Translations under genes and position numbers: made by a program
Source: Clostridiaceae bacterium
GTDB taxonomy: Bacteria; Bacillota; Clostridia; DSM-8532
Assembly: GCA_012523705.1 (NCBI GenBank)
Contig: JAAYTU010000072.1
Coordinates: forward strand, 1-33,852
Reading direction: 5' to 3'
Length of the DNA stretch: 33,852 nt
Shown: positions 23,957-32,486 of the stretch, one piece after another
Numbering within the stretch: position 1 is the stretch's first letter
Layout of the letters: the number at the start of each line of letters is the position of its first letter
Notes under the pieces: model-generated
Databases searched by the model: none
Told to the model about the DNA's origin: nothing
Seen by the model: the letters and a program-made list of their open reading frames with translations, nothing else

Positions 23957-25279
23957 TTAATTATCACCTTTTTGTTTAATTGTAAATCTAATGGGTGTTC
24001 CCTCAAACCCAAAATTACTTCTTAATGTGTTTTGCAAATATCTTGTATAGGAAAAATGCATAAGCTCTGCATCGTTTACAAACACGACAAAGCTCGGGGG
24101 CTTTACACCGGTCTGAGTCATATAATAAATCTTAAGCCGCTTTCCCTTGTCTGAAGGAGGCTGAACCATTGCCAAGGCATCGTTGAGCACATCATTCAAC
24201 AGTCCGGTGCTTACTCTAAATGAGGCCTGAGCGTTAACGTAATCTATAAGCTCAAATAATCTGTCAACCCGCTGTCCGGTAATAGCTGAAATAAATACTA
24301 TGGGGGCATAGCTCATGAATTCCAGGTCCCCTATAACCTTCTTACGATATTTCTCCATAGTACCAGTGCTCTTTTCAATGGAATCCCATTTATTAATGGC
24401 GATAATAGATGCTTTCCCCTGTTCATGGGCATATCCGGCAATTTTTGTATCCTGCTCGGTAACTCCATCCTTAGCGTCTATCATGATTATGCATACATCG
24501 GCCCTGTCGACCGCAGTCCATGATCTTATTATACTGTATTTCTCAATACCCTCTTCAATCTTGCTTTTTCGCCTGATTCCGGCCGTATCAATAAACATAT
24601 AGCGTTTTCCATCAATCTCGTAGAAGGTATCAATTGCATCCCTTGTGGTTCCCGGAACATCGCTTACTATTACCCGTTCTTCGCCCAGAATCCTGTTTAT
24701 CAGAGATGATTTCCCAGCATTGGGCTTTCCAATAACAGCCACTTTAATACAATCATCCTCCTGGCCCAGGACATCCTCAGTAGGAAAGTGTTCATATATG
24801 GCATCTAACAGGTCACCGATACCAAGACCATGTATTGATGATATGGGGTATATTTCTCCCATTCCTAGATTATAGAACTCGTAGGCCTCCGGTGGAGTAT
24901 CTCCAATACGGTCGGCCTTATTAACCGCTACGACAACTGGCTTTGAAGATTTTCGAAGCATAACTGCAACATCTTCGTCGGCAGCATTCATTCCGGTTTT
25001 TAAGTCCACCATCAATACTATAACATCGGCCGTATCTATAGCTATCTGAGCCTGTCGGATCATCTGTTGCTTAATAAAATCCTCAGAATAAGCTTCGATT
25101 CCTCCAGTATCAATTATAGTAAACTCTTTTCCTCGCCATTCACTTTCAGCGTAAATCCTGTCCCTTGTAACTCCAGGCGTATCCTCTATTATAGAAATCC
25201 GTTTCCCTGCAAGATAATTAAAAAATGTAGATTTACCTACATTAGGTCTTCCAACTATTGCAACTACGGGCTTTGACAC
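23957..25279 (-). CDS. der: Ribosome-associated GTPase Der (EngA)
   Basis: About 440 residues with the tandem GTPase domains unique to Der. Domain 1: GRPNVGKS, DTGG, NKAD. Domain 2: GKPNAGKSS, DTAG, NKWD. A C-terminal KH-like domain ends in FEGTPIRFTIKQ. Der is essential for 50S subunit assembly. Start choice: GTG at 25279 gives VSKPVVAIVGRP, which fits the family's usual N-terminus, with GGGGG 8 bases ahead. The GTG at 25303 has no ribosome site. First gene of der-plsY-gpsA, from a promoter at 25360-25388. Confidence 0.95.
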   Translation of the reverse strand: MSKPVVAIVGRPNVGKSTFFNYLAGKRISIIEDTPGVTRDRIYAESEWRGKEFTIIDTGGIEAYSEDFIKQQMIRQAQIAIDTADVIVLMVDLKTGMNAADEDVAVMLRKSSKPVVVAVNKADRIGDTPPEAYEFYNLGMGEIYPISSIHGLGIGDLLDAIYEHFPTEDVLGQEDDCIKVAVIGKPNAGKSSLINRILGEERVIVSDVPGTTRDAIDTFYEIDGKRYMFIDTAGIRRKSKIEEGIEKYSIIRSWTAVDRADVCIIMIDAKDGVTEQDTKIAGYAHEQGKASIIAINKWDSIEKSTGTMEKYRKKVIGDLEFMSYAPIVFISAITGQRVDRLFELIDYVNAQASFRVSTGLLNDVLNDALAMVQPPSDKGKRLKIYYMTQTGVKPPSFVVFVNDAELMHFSYTRYLQNTLRSNFGFEGTPIRFTIKQKGDN

Positions 25280-25359
25280 TATTTCATCCCCCACTATCTT
25301 CACATTTTGTATATATCGTTCCTGATATTAATCGATTCTTTGTAAAGTCTGTCGTTATA

Positions 25360-25546: not shown

Positions 25547-25613
25547 ACTCATAATAGAAGTGTTTTATAATAATGACAAGTCTGTGATTATTGTCTTAAA
25601 CGGAGGTAGGAAT

Positions 25614-28580
25614 ATGATAATTCATTCTGCAAGAACTACTACTAAAAATGCCTTTGAAGCCGCAAAATCTATTTTCAGGGAAAAATTTAATGCAAAAACC
25701 GGAGATGCTATTTTTTGCGACAGCTCTTTTTCTGATCTTATTGCTGTAACTGGCATAGTTTATAAGGCTCCTGCTGTTATAGAGCTATTAAAGAATAGAG
25801 AAATTGCTGATTATATTGACGAATTATCTAAAAAAAAGCTATCTCTGTTGTTCCAATTTGATGGCCAGACAAACAACCTCAAGGTTTTATCAGGGAATTC
25901 TTCTGGTGTTAGCGAGGTAAATTGTCCTGAGGATATTAAAGCCAAGATTATTACTATTCTATCTGAAATACCTGAATGGGCAGGAATCTTAAATGATAAA
26001 GGGGAGCATGAAATTGATCTGTTATATCCCCAGCCAGGGCCTCATTTTAATGTCAATTTGCTCTTAGGTAACAGAACCGACTATCCTTATCCCCTTCAAA
26101 CCACACCTAAGAGTGTTGTTGATAAGTTTGGCGGAGGAAGCTTCAGATCACATGCAGACACTCAGGTTCTCGCTACCCGTTGGGATACACGTCCTGAGGA
26201 AAACGGTTTTCCTGCCAATCGCCAGTTTTATCTGATGGAAAATAATAAGAAAATATTCTATTCAGCAGATCCCAATCATGAAAACTTTTTATCTGCTAAA
26301 TGTATCCATGGAAAAAATCATACCCGGATAATATACAAAACCCGTTGTGGTCTTACCGTTACCCGTCTGATTTTCGTTCTGCCCCAGTACGAAGGTCTTC
26401 CTCTTGCTACTGAGGTTCAGAGAATCGAGATAAAAAACAACTCCGGCACTTCACGAAATATAAGAATTGTATACACCGGAATGTTTGGCCTTTCAAGGCC
26501 TATGGCTCAGTGGGAGGACGTAATCTATTCAACTGTTATTATGCAATCAAGGGTTTTGCAAAATGATGATGGTTCAATTATAGCTATATCCCCCGACTAC
26601 TATCCGGAATTTGCTAAGCTTGATCAGCGTTTCCACAGCCTTATTGTACATAATAATGGTCAGACATCCTTTGCTAATGAATTCTGCATGAATTATAACG
26701 AGTTTGTGGGTTCAGGAACCCTTAATGACCCTAATAGCCTCCACAAATTATCCAATAGATTATCCAGAAAAGGTCCTGGATTCTTTGCTCTGGCTTCAGA
26801 GTTCAATATAGATAAGGACAGCAGCTGTATTGTTGATAATTTTACAGGTTTAGTCTCCGATAAGGCTAATGGGTCATATGATCCTGAAAAGAGCTTCCTT
26901 TCAGAGGTTCAGGCTCTTATTGACAGGTTTTCTGATGCTGCGGAGGTTGAGAATGCCTTTAATTACAATTTAAGCTTTCTGCAGCAATACTCAGACTTCC
27001 TTAAGGTGGAAACAGAAAACAAGATAATTGGTAATTATTTTAATAATAATCTACCTTTCCAAATTCTTTATCAAACCTTTGTTTCCCGTTCCTTTGCACA
27101 AACTCAAAAGGGCTATAGAGAAATGGGCTTCCGTGAGATTCAAGATTTGTTTGCGTCCATGTATTACTTTACAGCAATGGGAAAATCAGATCTTGTGAAG
27201 GATTTATTAACACAATGGTGTAGCCAGATTTACCAATTTGGATATGCTAACCATAATTTCTTCTGGGTCGGCAAGGAGCCAGGGGGCTGGTCCGATGACG
27301 CCCTTTGGTTCATTCAGGCTCTCTACCGTTACATAAGCCTTTCAGGAGATATTGATATATTAAATTTAGAAGTATCGGTCGCAGGTACTGATAAAAAGAG
27401 AAGGATATATGATACTGTCAAGGCTGTTATCCGTTATTCGGCAATCATTTCAACAGGAAAGCACGGACTTCCTCTACTTGATCGTGCAGACTGGAATGAC
27501 ACACTCAGAGTTGATGTGGATTCTATTGATGGTCCTACAAAGGAAAGACTTTATAAAGAGCAAATAGCCCCTGATACCGATGCTGTTGTTCGTTTTGAGA
27601 GCGATTATTCAGAGAGCGTCATGAATGCATTTCTGCTAAAGCTTGCCCTTGATGAAGCAATGGTATTTGCTGAACAGGCGAACGATATATCCTATAAAAA
27701 TGAGCTAAAGACTCTGACAGACACCCTGGTTGAAAATATTCAGAAGCATGCCTGGAAGGAAGACTTTTTCTGCCGAGTTCTGATTAACAGACCAACCAAG
27801 GGTGGAAACACCTATTTAGGAGCAAAGGGTGATGGTTTCTCTTCAGATCCTGACATAGACGGAGTATTCTTCCTGAATTCATTCAGCTGGTCGATTCTTT
27901 CAGATGTTGCCTCTGATGACCAGATTGAAAAGATGTTGGATGTTATTAACAATACTCTTAAGACACCCTATGGTTACAAACTAGTTTCTCCTTCAGACCT
28001 AAGCTCAGTAACATCCGAAAGTGCTACCGAGCATTATTTCCCTGGAGACAGAGAAAACGGCGGAGTATTTAAGCATGCTTGTATGATGGCTACAAGTGCT
28101 ATGTTCAAGGCCGCTAAAACAGTAAAGAATAAGAGCCTTGCCAAAAAGCTCAGCGATACCGCATATGAGATTGTTGATATTGTATTCCCTTTCAGAACCC
28201 TAAACAGCCCCTTTGAAATATGCGGCAACCCAAGAATTTGTACTCAATACAATAATAGTGACACAGGCGAGAATATCGGGCCATTGCTTTCTGGAACCTC
28301 AACATGGCTATTGCTCACTCTTATGGAGGCCTTTGGTATAGAATACACAAAGGATGGAATTGTTATTGAGCCCGTGCTGAGAAGTGATGAATCACAGTTA
28401 AAATATAGTATTAATACGGGAAAATCCCGCTATAAGGTGACTATATCAAAGACAAAAGAATTCAAACGATTCCTTGACACCAAATACACCTTACTGCTGG
28501 ACGGCAAAGAGCATTCATCAAATCTCATACCAATTTTTGATGACAACGCTACACATACAATCGAAATCAGTTTTGCATAG
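25614..28580 (+). CDS. GH94-like glycoside phosphorylase, substrate unassigned
   Basis: About 988 residues, cytoplasmic (no signal). An N-terminal beta-sandwich-like part (about 150-330, with TRWDTRPEENGFPANRQFY and GFGGG-type loops) precedes an (alpha/alpha)6 catalytic barrel. The barrel holds GWSDDALWFIQALYRYI, the acid motif RADWNDTL (Asp about 626) and ATEHYFPGDRENGGVFKHA, all patterns of GH94 phosphorylases, which cleave beta-glucosides with phosphate to release a sugar 1-phosphate. It is longer than cellobiose phosphorylase (about 810) and nearer to the long-form GH94 enzymes. The disaccharide or oligosaccharide is not decidable here. Start choice: GGAGG 7 bases before ATG 25614; the ATG-like codons upstream lack one. 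A cre-like operator controls it. Confidence 0.78.
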   Translation: MIIHSARTTTKNAFEAAKSIFREKFNAKTGDAIFCDSSFSDLIAVTGIVYKAPAVIELLKNREIADYIDELSKKKLSLLFQFDGQTNNLKVLSGNSSGVSEVNCPEDIKAKIITILSEIPEWAGILNDKGEHEIDLLYPQPGPHFNVNLLLGNRTDYPYPLQTTPKSVVDKFGGGSFRSHADTQVLATRWDTRPEENGFPANRQFYLMENNKKIFYSADPNHENFLSAKCIHGKNHTRIIYKTRCGLTVTRLIFVLPQYEGLPLATEVQRIEIKNNSGTSRNIRIVYTGMFGLSRPMAQWEDVIYSTVIMQSRVLQNDDGSIIAISPDYYPEFAKLDQRFHSLIVHNNGQTSFANEFCMNYNEFVGSGTLNDPNSLHKLSNRLSRKGPGFFALASEFNIDKDSSCIVDNFTGLVSDKANGSYDPEKSFLSEVQALIDRFSDAAEVENAFNYNLSFLQQYSDFLKVETENKIIGNYFNNNLPFQILYQTFVSRSFAQTQKGYREMGFREIQDLFASMYYFTAMGKSDLVKDLLTQWCSQIYQFGYANHNFFWVGKEPGGWSDDALWFIQALYRYISLSGDIDILNLEVSVAGTDKKRRIYDTVKAVIRYSAIISTGKHGLPLLDRADWNDTLRVDVDSIDGPTKERLYKEQIAPDTDAVVRFESDYSESVMNAFLLKLALDEAMVFAEQANDISYKNELKTLTDTLVENIQKHAWKEDFFCRVLINRPTKGGNTYLGAKGDGFSSDPDIDGVFFLNSFSWSILSDVASDDQIEKMLDVINNTLKTPYGYKLVSPSDLSSVTSESATEHYFPGDRENGGVFKHACMMATSAMFKAAKTVKNKSLAKKLSDTAYEIVDIVFPFRTLNSPFEICGNPRICTQYNNSDTGENIGPLLSGTSTWLLLTLMEAFGIEYTKDGIVIEPVLRSDESQLKYSINTGKSRYKVTISKTKEFKRFLDTKYTLLLDGKEHSSNLIPIFDDNATHTIEISFA

Positions 28581-28595
28581 GCTGCATCTGATAAC

Positions 28596-28615
28596 TTTAA
28601 TTATGCATAATTAAA
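28596..28615. repeat. 20-bp perfect palindrome
   Basis: TTTAATTATGCATAATTAAA is symmetric over all 20 bases, 15 bases after the phosphorylase stop. It has no T-run, so it is not a standard terminator. It could be an operator for the next gene or an mRNA 3'-end hairpin. Confidence 0.75.
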
Positions 28616-28634
28616 AATATATCCTATATATTAG

Positions 28635-28709
28635 TAGTCGGGAGCTTTATTAATAGAGGAAAAACATGGAAAAATCCTTCATGCCTTTAACCAATGAGAC
28701 TCCCGACTA
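28635..28709 (+). promoter_or_regulatory. Long-range inverted repeat around a start codon
   Basis: TAGTCGGGAG (28635-28644) and CTCCCGACTA (28700-28709) are perfect 10-bp complements, 55 bases apart. They enclose the ribosome site (AGAGGA) and ATG (28666) of the MurD-domain gene. In mRNA this would put the start region in a closed loop. Confidence 0.55.
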
Positions 28710-29226
28710 TCATTTTGATCATGATGTAAAAGAGTCTAAACCACTTGATAGCGAAACACTATCTTCTCAAGTAAAGTCTGAACACATAAAATCCATAAAT
28801 GATACAAATTATTATTTTGATATGTCAGGTATTAGTCCTGAAAATACTGCAGCTACCCTGAATTCTTTCAATGAAAGGCTTTTATTAATTACCGGAAGCG
28901 ACAGCGTCGATTTAAGCCAAGCTTCTTATGATTTACTGGGTTCTGTTCTGATCCATAAGGTCAAGCATCTGATTCTAATAGGACAAACTGCTGGTCTTAT
29001 TGAATTATCATTAATGAAAAGGCTAACAGGAAAGAATAAAGGGATTGATATTCGCATCACCAGATGCCTTACCCTGAAGCAAGCTGCTGACTGTGCATAT
29101 CTTTGTGCAAAACCCGGCGAAAATGTTCTCTTATCTCCGGCTGGAAGTATGTTTTCCGGTTACAGCTCAATAGAGGAGTTAAAAAACTCATTTATTGAAT
29201 GTATAAATTCAGAAGATGAAAGCTAG
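28666..29226 (+). CDS. Free-standing MurD C-terminal (domain 3)-like protein
   Basis: 186 residues. Residues about 48-180 follow the third domain of UDP-MurNAc-L-Ala:D-Glu ligase (MurD): YYFDMSGISPENTAATLNSF aligns with the MurD stretch carrying DSKATNP; RLLLITG with its LIAGG strand; HLILIGQTAG with its LIGE segment; and AKPGENVLLSPAGS with AxxGDxVLLSPACAS. The ATP-binding central domain and UDP-binding N-domain are absent, and the substrate-contact residues (DSKAT Lys, GGxDKG, CAS...D) are replaced. It is therefore not a ligase in itself. About 47 polar N-terminal residues are extra. The nearby sugar genes give no clear clue to its function. Domain call from pattern; role unknown. Confidence 0.65.
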   Translation: MEKSFMPLTNETPDYHFDHDVKESKPLDSETLSSQVKSEHIKSINDTNYYFDMSGISPENTAATLNSFNERLLLITGSDSVDLSQASYDLLGSVLIHKVKHLILIGQTAGLIELSLMKRLTGKNKGIDIRITRCLTLKQAADCAYLCAKPGENVLLSPAGSMFSGYSSIEELKNSFIECINSEDES

Positions 29227-30323: not shown

Positions 30324-31253
30324 CTATTCAGTAAACAAAGCAGTTGAAAGATACCTTTCTCCTGTATCGGGAAGCAGAACTACAATTTTCTTTCCCTTAT
30401 TCTCAGGCCTGCTTGCCAAAACACCAGCCGCATGAAGGGCAGCTCCACTAGATATTCCCACTAGTACTCCCTCTGTCTTTGCAAGATTTTTGGATGCAGC
30501 AAAGGCATCATCATTGGATACTGTAATAATTTCATCAAGAATCTCTGTATTAAGTACCTTAGGGACGAACCCAGCTCCAATGCCCTGTATTTTATGAGGG
30601 CCTTTTTCTCCCCTCGACAGCACCGGCGAATCTGAAGGTTCAACCGCAACAATTTTTACCTCAGGCTTTTTACTCTTTAACACTTCGCCAACACCTGTTA
30701 CTGTTCCACCTGTGCCAACCCCTGCAACAAATATATCTACCTGACCATCGGTGTCATTCCAGATTTCCTCGGCCGTAGTCATTCTGTGGATTTCCGGATT
30801 TGATGGGTTTTCAAACTGTTGAGGAATGAAGGAATTCGGGATCTCCTTTGAAAGCTCCTCCGCCTTTTTTATTGCTCCAGGCATTCCCTCTTCACCTGGA
30901 GTTAAAACCAGCTCTGCTCCTAAAGCCTTCATAAGATTTCGTCTTTCAATACTAAATGTATCGGGCAATGTGATGATAAGTCTATAACGGCGTGCTGCTG
31001 CCACAAATGCCAATCCTATACCGGTATTGCCGCTTGTGGGCTCAATAATAACTGTATCCTTATTAATCAGGCCTTTTTCCTCCGCATCCTTAATCATAGC
31101 GTAGGCTATTCTGTCCTTTACACTACCAGCTGGATTAAAATATTCAAGCTTAGCATATAAGTCAGCTAATAGTCCTTCTGATGCTTTATAATTAGATATT
31201 TCAAGTAACGGGGTATTTCCGATCAACTCGGTTATGCTCTTTGCAATTCTCAT
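30324..31253 (-). CDS. cysK: Cysteine synthase A (O-acetylserine sulfhydrylase)
   Basis: 309 residues. The PLP lysine is Lys46 in NPAGSVKDR; the substrate loop TSGNTG is at 73-78; the phosphate-binding GTGGT is near 175; [10 protein letters not shown] closes the PLP site. It makes cysteine from O-acetylserine and sulfide. In Bacillus and Staphylococcus CysK also binds the regulator CymR and helps it repress sulfur genes. Start choice: GGAGG is 5 bases before ATG 31253; the frame's earlier ATG (31265) overlaps that site. A strong promoter and a sequence shared with the cymR-like gene lie upstream. Confidence 0.95.
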
Positions 31254-31268
31254 ATTAACCTCCATTAA

Positions 31269-31379: not shown

Positions 31380-32486
31380 CTATGAAAAGGTTTCACTGAT
31401 TATTCCCCCGCCTACAACAAAATCATTTTTATATAGAACAACAGACTGTCCCGGCGCCACAAACGAAACAGGATTATCAAATACTATCTTCGCTTTATCA
31501 TCCTCTAACGCTATTAACCTGGCTGGAATTTCTTTCTGAGAATATCGGGTTCTCGCCATTACCTTCTTTTCTGTATCAGGTTTTTCATAAAGAATATAGT
31601 TCATTTCACGGGCAATAAGACCACTTACCAAACCATCCTCCTTACTGCCAAGGGTTACTGTATTCTTATCACTGTCCTTACCAATTACATATTTACGCTC
31701 TGGAAAGCTCATACCCAGACCCTTCCTCTGACCAATTGTATAATTAACCATGCCTTTGTTCTTTCCTAGAACATTTCCATGCTTATCTATATAACATCCC
31801 TCGGGAATATCAGCGTTTTTGTATTCCTTAATAAAGTCAACATAGGATCCCTTTTGCACAAAACAGATATCCTGGCTGTCGGGCTTTCTGGCATTAATAA
31901 GATCCTTTTCCTCTGCAATTTCCCGGACCTGAGTCTTATAGTAATTACCTAGCGGAAGCAGGAGCCTTTCTAATTGCTCCTGAGTAAGCATATAAAGGAC
32001 GTAGCTCTGATCCTTGGATAAATCAAGAGCCTTCTTTAGAACATATCGATTGATTTTCTCATCAAATTCAACCCTTGCATAATGGCCTGTAGCTATATAA
32101 TCCATGTCAAGAGCTATTGCTTTCTGCAGCATTGCTTCAAATTTTATATAACGATTACAGGCAATACAGGGATTAGGAGTATCTCCAGCTAGGTAGGCGT
32201 CAACGAAATAATCAACTACCCTTTCTTTAAAGAGATCCTTCATATTTAGTACATAGAAAGGTATGTCAAGTTTGAATGCCGTTGCTCTTGCATTCTCAAC
32301 ATCCTCCAGAGAACAGCATGTTCTGGTCATCTTTCCATTCGATGAGTCTGTTGAATCATTCCCATCCCAAAGCTTTAAGGTAGTGCCGTATACATCGTAT
32401 CCTCTATCCAAAAGAATGGCAGCAGCTGCACTTGAATCAACACCGCCACTCATTCCCACCATCACTTTTTTTCTTTTTGTTTCCAT
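31380..32486 (-). CDS. mnmA: tRNA-specific 2-thiouridylase MnmA
   Basis: 368 residues. PP-loop GMSGGVDSS (11-19) binds ATP. The catalytic pair is Cys107 (NPCIAC) and Cys208 (DICFVQKGSYVDFI), with GHYARV between. The C-terminal beta-barrel contains VNYTIGQRKGLGM and the final FVAPGQSVVLY. It puts sulfur on U34 of tRNA-Glu, -Gln and -Lys. It needs a cysteine desulfurase, which is not encoded here; in many Firmicutes that gene stands between the Rrf2 regulator and mnmA. It lies 30 bases after the cymR-like gene and is probably cotranscribed with it. Confidence 0.96.
   Translation of the reverse strand: METKRKKVMVGMSGGVDSSAAAAILLDRGYDVYGTTLKLWDGNDSTDSSNGKMTRTCCSLEDVENARATAFKLDIPFYVLNMKDLFKERVVDYFVDAYLAGDTPNPCIACNRYIKFEAMLQKAIALDMDYIATGHYARVEFDEKINRYVLKKALDLSKDQSYVLYMLTQEQLERLLLPLGNYYKTQVREIAEEKDLINARKPDSQDICFVQKGSYVDFIKEYKNADIPEGCYIDKHGNVLGKNKGMVNYTIGQRKGLGMSFPERKYVIGKDSDKNTVTLGSKEDGLVSGLIAREMNYILYEKPDTEKKVMARTRYSQKEIPARLIALEDDKAKIVFDNPVSFVAPGQSVVLYKNDFVVGGGIISETFS

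Follow-up and report, generated by a model that had tools for sequence, protein, structure and literature searches.

A gene that encodes nothing but the C-terminal domain of MurD raises the question of where such a fragment comes from and what it can do apart from the rest of the ligase. The gene lies in the window, by which we mean the whole analyzed stretch of 33,852 nucleotides from a Clostridiaceae bacterium (contig JAAYTU010000072.1). For comparison we used 14 genomes of the genus, which belongs to the anaerobic clostridia, one per species; where they have to be told apart, they are named by handles such as G001. Our preferred reading, to which we assign a probability of roughly 0.55, is that the product is a reduced ancestral MurD that is kept by selection and works by non-catalytic docking.

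A stand-alone gene for domain 3 of MurD

The open reading frame extends on the forward strand from an ATG at 28666 to a stop codon at 29226, is preceded by a ribosome-binding site (AGAGG, 28655-28659, forward strand) and encodes 186 amino acids. The product matches the MurD model TIGR01087 at positions 307-440 of 441 (E 3.9e-12), and its score of 46 bits misses the curated cut-off of 211.95 bits for a MurD enzyme. The first-pass annotation had described a match to the C-terminal domain of MurD along about 130 residues. The match itself is sound, and its length is rather about 145 residues, as MurD structures of the PDB align over residues 36-182 (best E 7.9e-6). Superposition of an AF2 model (mean pLDDT 83.5) on solved MurDs confirmed the fold of domain 3, with a Z score of 21.2 and 1.7 Å over 136 residues. 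With Pfam PF02875, the protein scores 21.3 bits, below the gathering cut-off of 28.4, and three stand-alone relatives reach 40.6, 30.2 and 31.6 bits.

Neither the UDP-binding domain 1 nor the ATP-binding domain 2 with its P-loop was found in the protein or its surroundings, as had been claimed from the sequence. The upstream gene stops at 28580, 85 bp before the start codon, and therefore leaves no room for them. A split MurD was rejected as well, because a complete MurD is present elsewhere in the genome and no orphan domain 1-2 was found. The added polar N-terminus that had been noted is also real: residues 1-35 (28666-28770, forward strand) have mostly low pLDDT values and are predicted to be mostly disordered. 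In the alignment, an extension of similar length is present in G001, G002 and G011, absent in G006 and G007 and doubtful in G009. At most weak constraint acts on it in the trio G001, G002 and G011 (omega 0.44, 2dL 1.8).

Two substrate loops are degenerate. Residues 51-58 (28816-28839, forward strand) read FDMSGISP instead of NDSIGSSP or NDSKATN, and residues 157-174 (29134-29187, forward strand) have lost the equivalents of S415 and F422. Together with those of R302 and K348, the equivalents of four domain-3 substrate residues are lost in the alignment (numbering of E. coli MurD; for R302 also in PMC4816537). The reported loss of substrate contacts thus stands, with one qualification: at the K319/T321-type motif (NDSK-T), NDSIGSSP is what the family's working MurDs already have, so that only part of the change is special to the fragment.

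An inverted repeat (28635-28651 and 28693-28709) brackets the ribosome-binding site and the start codon, and the RNA of positions 28600-28730 folds at -34.1 kcal/mol (z -4.5), which would hide the start of the gene. This hairpin is absent from the five relatives that were checked.

Graded states of the ancestral MurD at one locus

Synteny places the stand-alone gene in a conserved locus between der-plsY-gpsA and cysK-mnmA-rrf2-tcdA. In the window, the left flank is represented by der (23957-25303, reverse strand) and the right flank by a cysK-like (30324-31265, reverse strand) and a mnmA-like gene (31380-32486, reverse strand). The upstream neighbor (25560-28580, forward strand) encodes a GH94-like protein of 1006 amino acids, identified by Pfam GH94 and without an NCBIfam model, which also adjoins the intact full-length MurD in G003. 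G003 has the same gene order as the window (der, GH94, full-length MurD, cysK, mnmA), except that an intact enzyme occupies the position of the fragment. A tcdA-like gene also adjoins the working MurD of genus g2. A metB-like gene is located between rrf2 and mnmA in G003, G009, G010, G012 and G013, and it is missing in the window, G001, G002, G006 and G007. Downstream of the stand-alone gene and in the same orientation, G001, G002 and G011 have genes for PDZ-domain and TIR-TPR proteins (L035:9608-13397; also L033 and L047). These were not present in the window, G006, G007 and G009, and beyond the housekeeping flanks synteny revealed no neighbor common to all stand-alone copies.

Across the genus, the ancestral gene was found in graded states. 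Intact motifs are retained in G003 and G010. G013 encodes a full-length protein with a changed P-loop (GKT to GTN) and without the HLD motif, and G008 a full-length protein with a broken catalytic motif (HLD to CKV), located on a small contig with other neighbors. Seven species (the window's genome, G001, G002, G006, G007, G009 and G011) have domain 3 only, and from G012 the gene is cleanly gone. No state was assigned to G004 and G005, as the ancestral locus is unassembled there. Intact, dead full-length, truncated and missing forms at one locus indicate that the old MurD was reduced, and it is almost certain that the gene is a reduced remnant of the lineage's ancestral MurD.

The assembly of the window's genome is fragmented (146 contigs) and 99.7% complete. 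The named genus members are metagenome-assembled Clostridiaceae, Ruminiclostridium and unclassified Clostridia or Bacillota from separate deposits, hence one assembly error is unable to explain the pattern. A single-protein scan of the named genomes gave 0 matches; an alignment search recovered 10 members, all on same-genus contigs of separately deposited assemblies. A search of the family's 32 genomes revealed no stand-alone copy outside the genus. Short frames in G033 sit at a contig end, and a Mur-ligase-like match in G007 (C93:27378-28406) was reported with an internal TAG. A phage or plasmid origin was rejected, since these sources gave distant MurD matches only, with about 26-35% identity among the matches listed.

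A second MurD adjoins murI

The complete MurD in the genome of the window is encoded on another contig next to murI (G000:C101, L032:10202-11569). This type was found in all 14 genomes except G003 and G010, the latter being an assembly of only 81% completeness. For G007 and G011 just its C-terminal piece is visible, at the end of a contig, and the G004 copy is divided between two contigs. In every genome where the murI-linked MurD was detected and the ancestral locus is assembled, the old catalytic site is either broken or missing, and within the genus stand-alone copies were found only in genomes that also carry the murI-linked type.

Domain 3 of the fragment shares about 33-38% identity with the sole MurDs of the other genera of the family and 24-30% with the murI-linked enzymes. 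In trees built from domain 3 and from full-length proteins, the fragment groups with the full-length copies of its own locus and apart from the murI-linked type. By sequence, the fragment is thus the lineage's own MurD, reduced in the presence of a second MurD that belongs to another type, with intermediate stages surviving in sister species.

In genus g7 (G019, G024, G028, G030 and G031), the sole MurD match is of the murI-linked type, assigned by 67-71% identity in three genomes and by similar scores in two. Neither the ancestral type nor a stand-alone copy was seen in these five genomes. G003 contains a MurL-like epimerase (NF041275, 256 bits versus a cut-off of 700) beside a further MurD-like ligase (L062:6919-9701), possibly a MurD2/MurL pair outside the Xanthomonadales.

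The stand-alone domain is under purifying selection

Codon models revealed strong constraint on the stand-alone gene. Omega was 0.116 in the six-species stand-alone clade, 0.132 in the trio G001, G002 and G011 and 0.146 in the closest pair, and omega = 1 was rejected in each case (2dL 289, 110 and 57, respectively); deep branches are near saturation, so the values of close pairs are the ones to trust. Unless the codon model is seriously misled, relaxed selection with omega near 1, as expected for a pseudogene, is largely ruled out by these values. In agreement, seven species have kept the frame open although their sequences differ at up to 45% of nucleotides; in a neutral simulation, open frames made up about 1% or less once the difference had reached 20%. 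The view of the first-pass annotation that this is a stable, independent gene is borne out, and we consider a selected function of the domain highly probable.

The full-length protein of G013 fits this picture. Its domains 1-2 have an omega of 0.44, indistinguishable from 1 (2dL 1.3), and its domain 3 is constrained (omega 0.037, 2dL 14.8), as if this MurD were caught midway in reduction. The estimate for G008 was saturated and uninformative.

The relationships of the species bear on the number of truncations. In trees of the flanking genes, G009 joins G012 at a support of 99-100 and, at a lower support of 81-89, also G013, whose MurD is still full-length; the remaining stand-alone species branch elsewhere. 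The domain-3 tree agrees, grouping the six other stand-alone copies with a support of 96-99. Taken alone, this tree is statistically compatible with a single truncation (AU p 0.48), and with rpoB alone G013 branches at the base of the genus. We therefore consider it likely, though not proven, that reduction to this domain happened twice independently.

Conservation has shifted from the active site to residues 98-150

The pattern of conservation is inverted in the stand-alone copies. Among the working MurDs of the family, conservation is highest in the active-site loops (mean pairwise identity 0.92) and lowest in residues 98-150 (0.52), whereas the respective values for the seven stand-alone copies are 0.38 and 0.75. 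The genus-specific block of residues 98-150 (28957-29115, forward strand), our proposed docking surface, forms a strand-helix-loop-strand-helix unit. Altogether, 24 residues are invariant across 11 sequences of the genus. They include K98, H101, G122, K123, R130, T132, C134, T136, Q139, D142 and C143, which are found in 11 of 11 sequences including the intact MurDs of G003 and G010; these residues were thus present alongside catalysis. Synonymous sites in the block vary as they do elsewhere (0.53 versus 0.54 and 0.48), indicating that the constraint acts on the protein. The same comparison ruled out an overlapping gene or an RNA constraint as the cause of the block. The substrate loops of domain 3 in Mur ligases come after the C-terminal strand ends. 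Within the block, loop 120-129 would lie at the opposite pole, a position that would fit a partner surface.

What the retained domain may do

The stand-alone domain is a selected pseudoenzyme domain, neither a decaying relic nor a sensor that uses the normal pocket. The missing domains 1-2 and catalytic residues, together with the loss of the gene in one species, are what a functionless fragment still in decay would show. That explanation is most improbable in view of the omega values of 0.12-0.15, which are far below 1 even in the closest pair, the open frames that outlast neutral expectation, the AGGAGG ribosome-binding sites preceding the genes of G006 and G007 and the invariant residues. 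Sensing of D-glutamate or a peptidoglycan precursor, as the first-pass annotation had suggested, would build on the fold with which MurD holds the incoming amino acid. The idea is very unlikely to hold, because the pocket residues are lost and the pocket region is the least conserved part of the domain, and because the MurD domains that bind the nucleotide precursor (domain 1) and ATP (domain 2) are both missing here.

Regulation of the resident MurD was another suggestion, and it is possible: the old domain 3 could be a regulatory subunit that binds the second MurD or its neighbor MurI and tunes its activity, in line with the restriction of stand-alone copies to genomes with the murI-linked type. 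We regard this as unlikely, given that genus g7 has that type without the fragment and that the conserved block is also present in G003 and G010, in which a murI-linked MurD was not detected; the block did not arise for that partner. Recruitment into an unrelated process, comparable to the MurE-like protein in the plastid RNA polymerase, is suggested by the PDZ-domain and TIR-TPR proteins downstream in three species. The lack of these neighbors in the four other species with a stand-alone gene speaks against it, and it too is an improbable explanation.

We favor docking, and rate a non-catalytic docking role of the domain as somewhat better than even. By comparison of the species, most of the genus carries the second MurD type adjoining murI, the old MurD lost its active site, and in seven species domains 1 and 2 were dropped altogether and domain 3 was kept as a separate, selected gene. 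A non-catalytic role of domain 3, carried by residues 98-150, may predate the loss of catalysis, and the second MurD may have left this docking role unreplaced. Domain 3 would then be an adaptor or regulatory pseudoenzyme, neither a ligase nor a ligand sensor with the old pocket.

According to published work, MurD, MurE and MurF bind MurG and MreB, and in the absence of these two the ligases do not bind one another (PMC6420597, PMC4929429); a partner in this machinery is therefore the simplest proposal. Mur ligases are thought to form a multi-enzyme cytoplasmic complex on MurG and MreB, with contact surfaces that are unmapped (PMC4929429). Residues 98-150 would most likely dock to a member of the cytoplasmic peptidoglycan machinery such as MurG, MreB or another Mur enzyme; a partner in peptidoglycan synthesis is still a tentative assignment, with odds slightly below even. 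Similarly tentative is the wider proposal that the MurD of the genus was bifunctional, that the second MurD took over catalysis and that only the partner-binding domain 3 was kept, probably twice independently. The role is dispensable, as the gene was lost in G012 and is absent from g7. The incomplete assembly of G010 and the MurD2/MurL-like pair of G003, the two species without the murI-linked MurD, count against our reading.

The living intermediates point to a stretch of about 53 residues in domain 3 of MurD that is kept when all catalytic parts are lost, and they offer a small protein with a defined patch for seeking a partner. They also give a stepwise view of how an essential enzyme is reduced to a pseudoenzyme of one domain when its reaction is provided by another. 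If the proposal of a bifunctional MurD is true, the locus represents a natural separation-of-function experiment for a Mur ligase.

Comparison with known systems

A description of a stand-alone MurD domain or a Mur pseudoenzyme was not found in the literature searched, which left subscription titles mostly outside. MurD itself, at the C-terminus of TIGR01087, shares fold and ancestry across the whole conserved part; the stand-alone version differs from it by the lack of domains 1-2, the lost pocket residues, the shift of conservation to residues 98-150 and a gene to itself. The MurE-like PAP11 of the plastid-encoded RNA polymerase is a Mur ligase retained in another complex, and PEP complexes appear among the fold matches of the AF2 model. 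PAP11 is a three-domain plant protein derived from MurE, unlike the single domain left here beside a second enzyme. The MurD2/MurL pathway likewise involves a second, non-orthologous bacterial MurD (PMC8788868), whereas the second MurD in the genome of the window is of an ordinary type next to murI, and a MurD2/MurL-like pair was seen only in G003. MurT of the MurT/GatD amidotransferase is also derived from a Mur ligase, comprises central and C-terminal Mur domains and works with a partner (PMC6085368). In contrast to the stand-alone domain, it keeps the ATP domain, a Cys-rich insertion and catalysis; identity with MurT was rejected, as the 186-residue protein consists of domain 3 only and no MurT model was among its matches. 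Neither MurT/GatD nor PAP11 represents a lone domain that remained when a different enzyme replaced the first.
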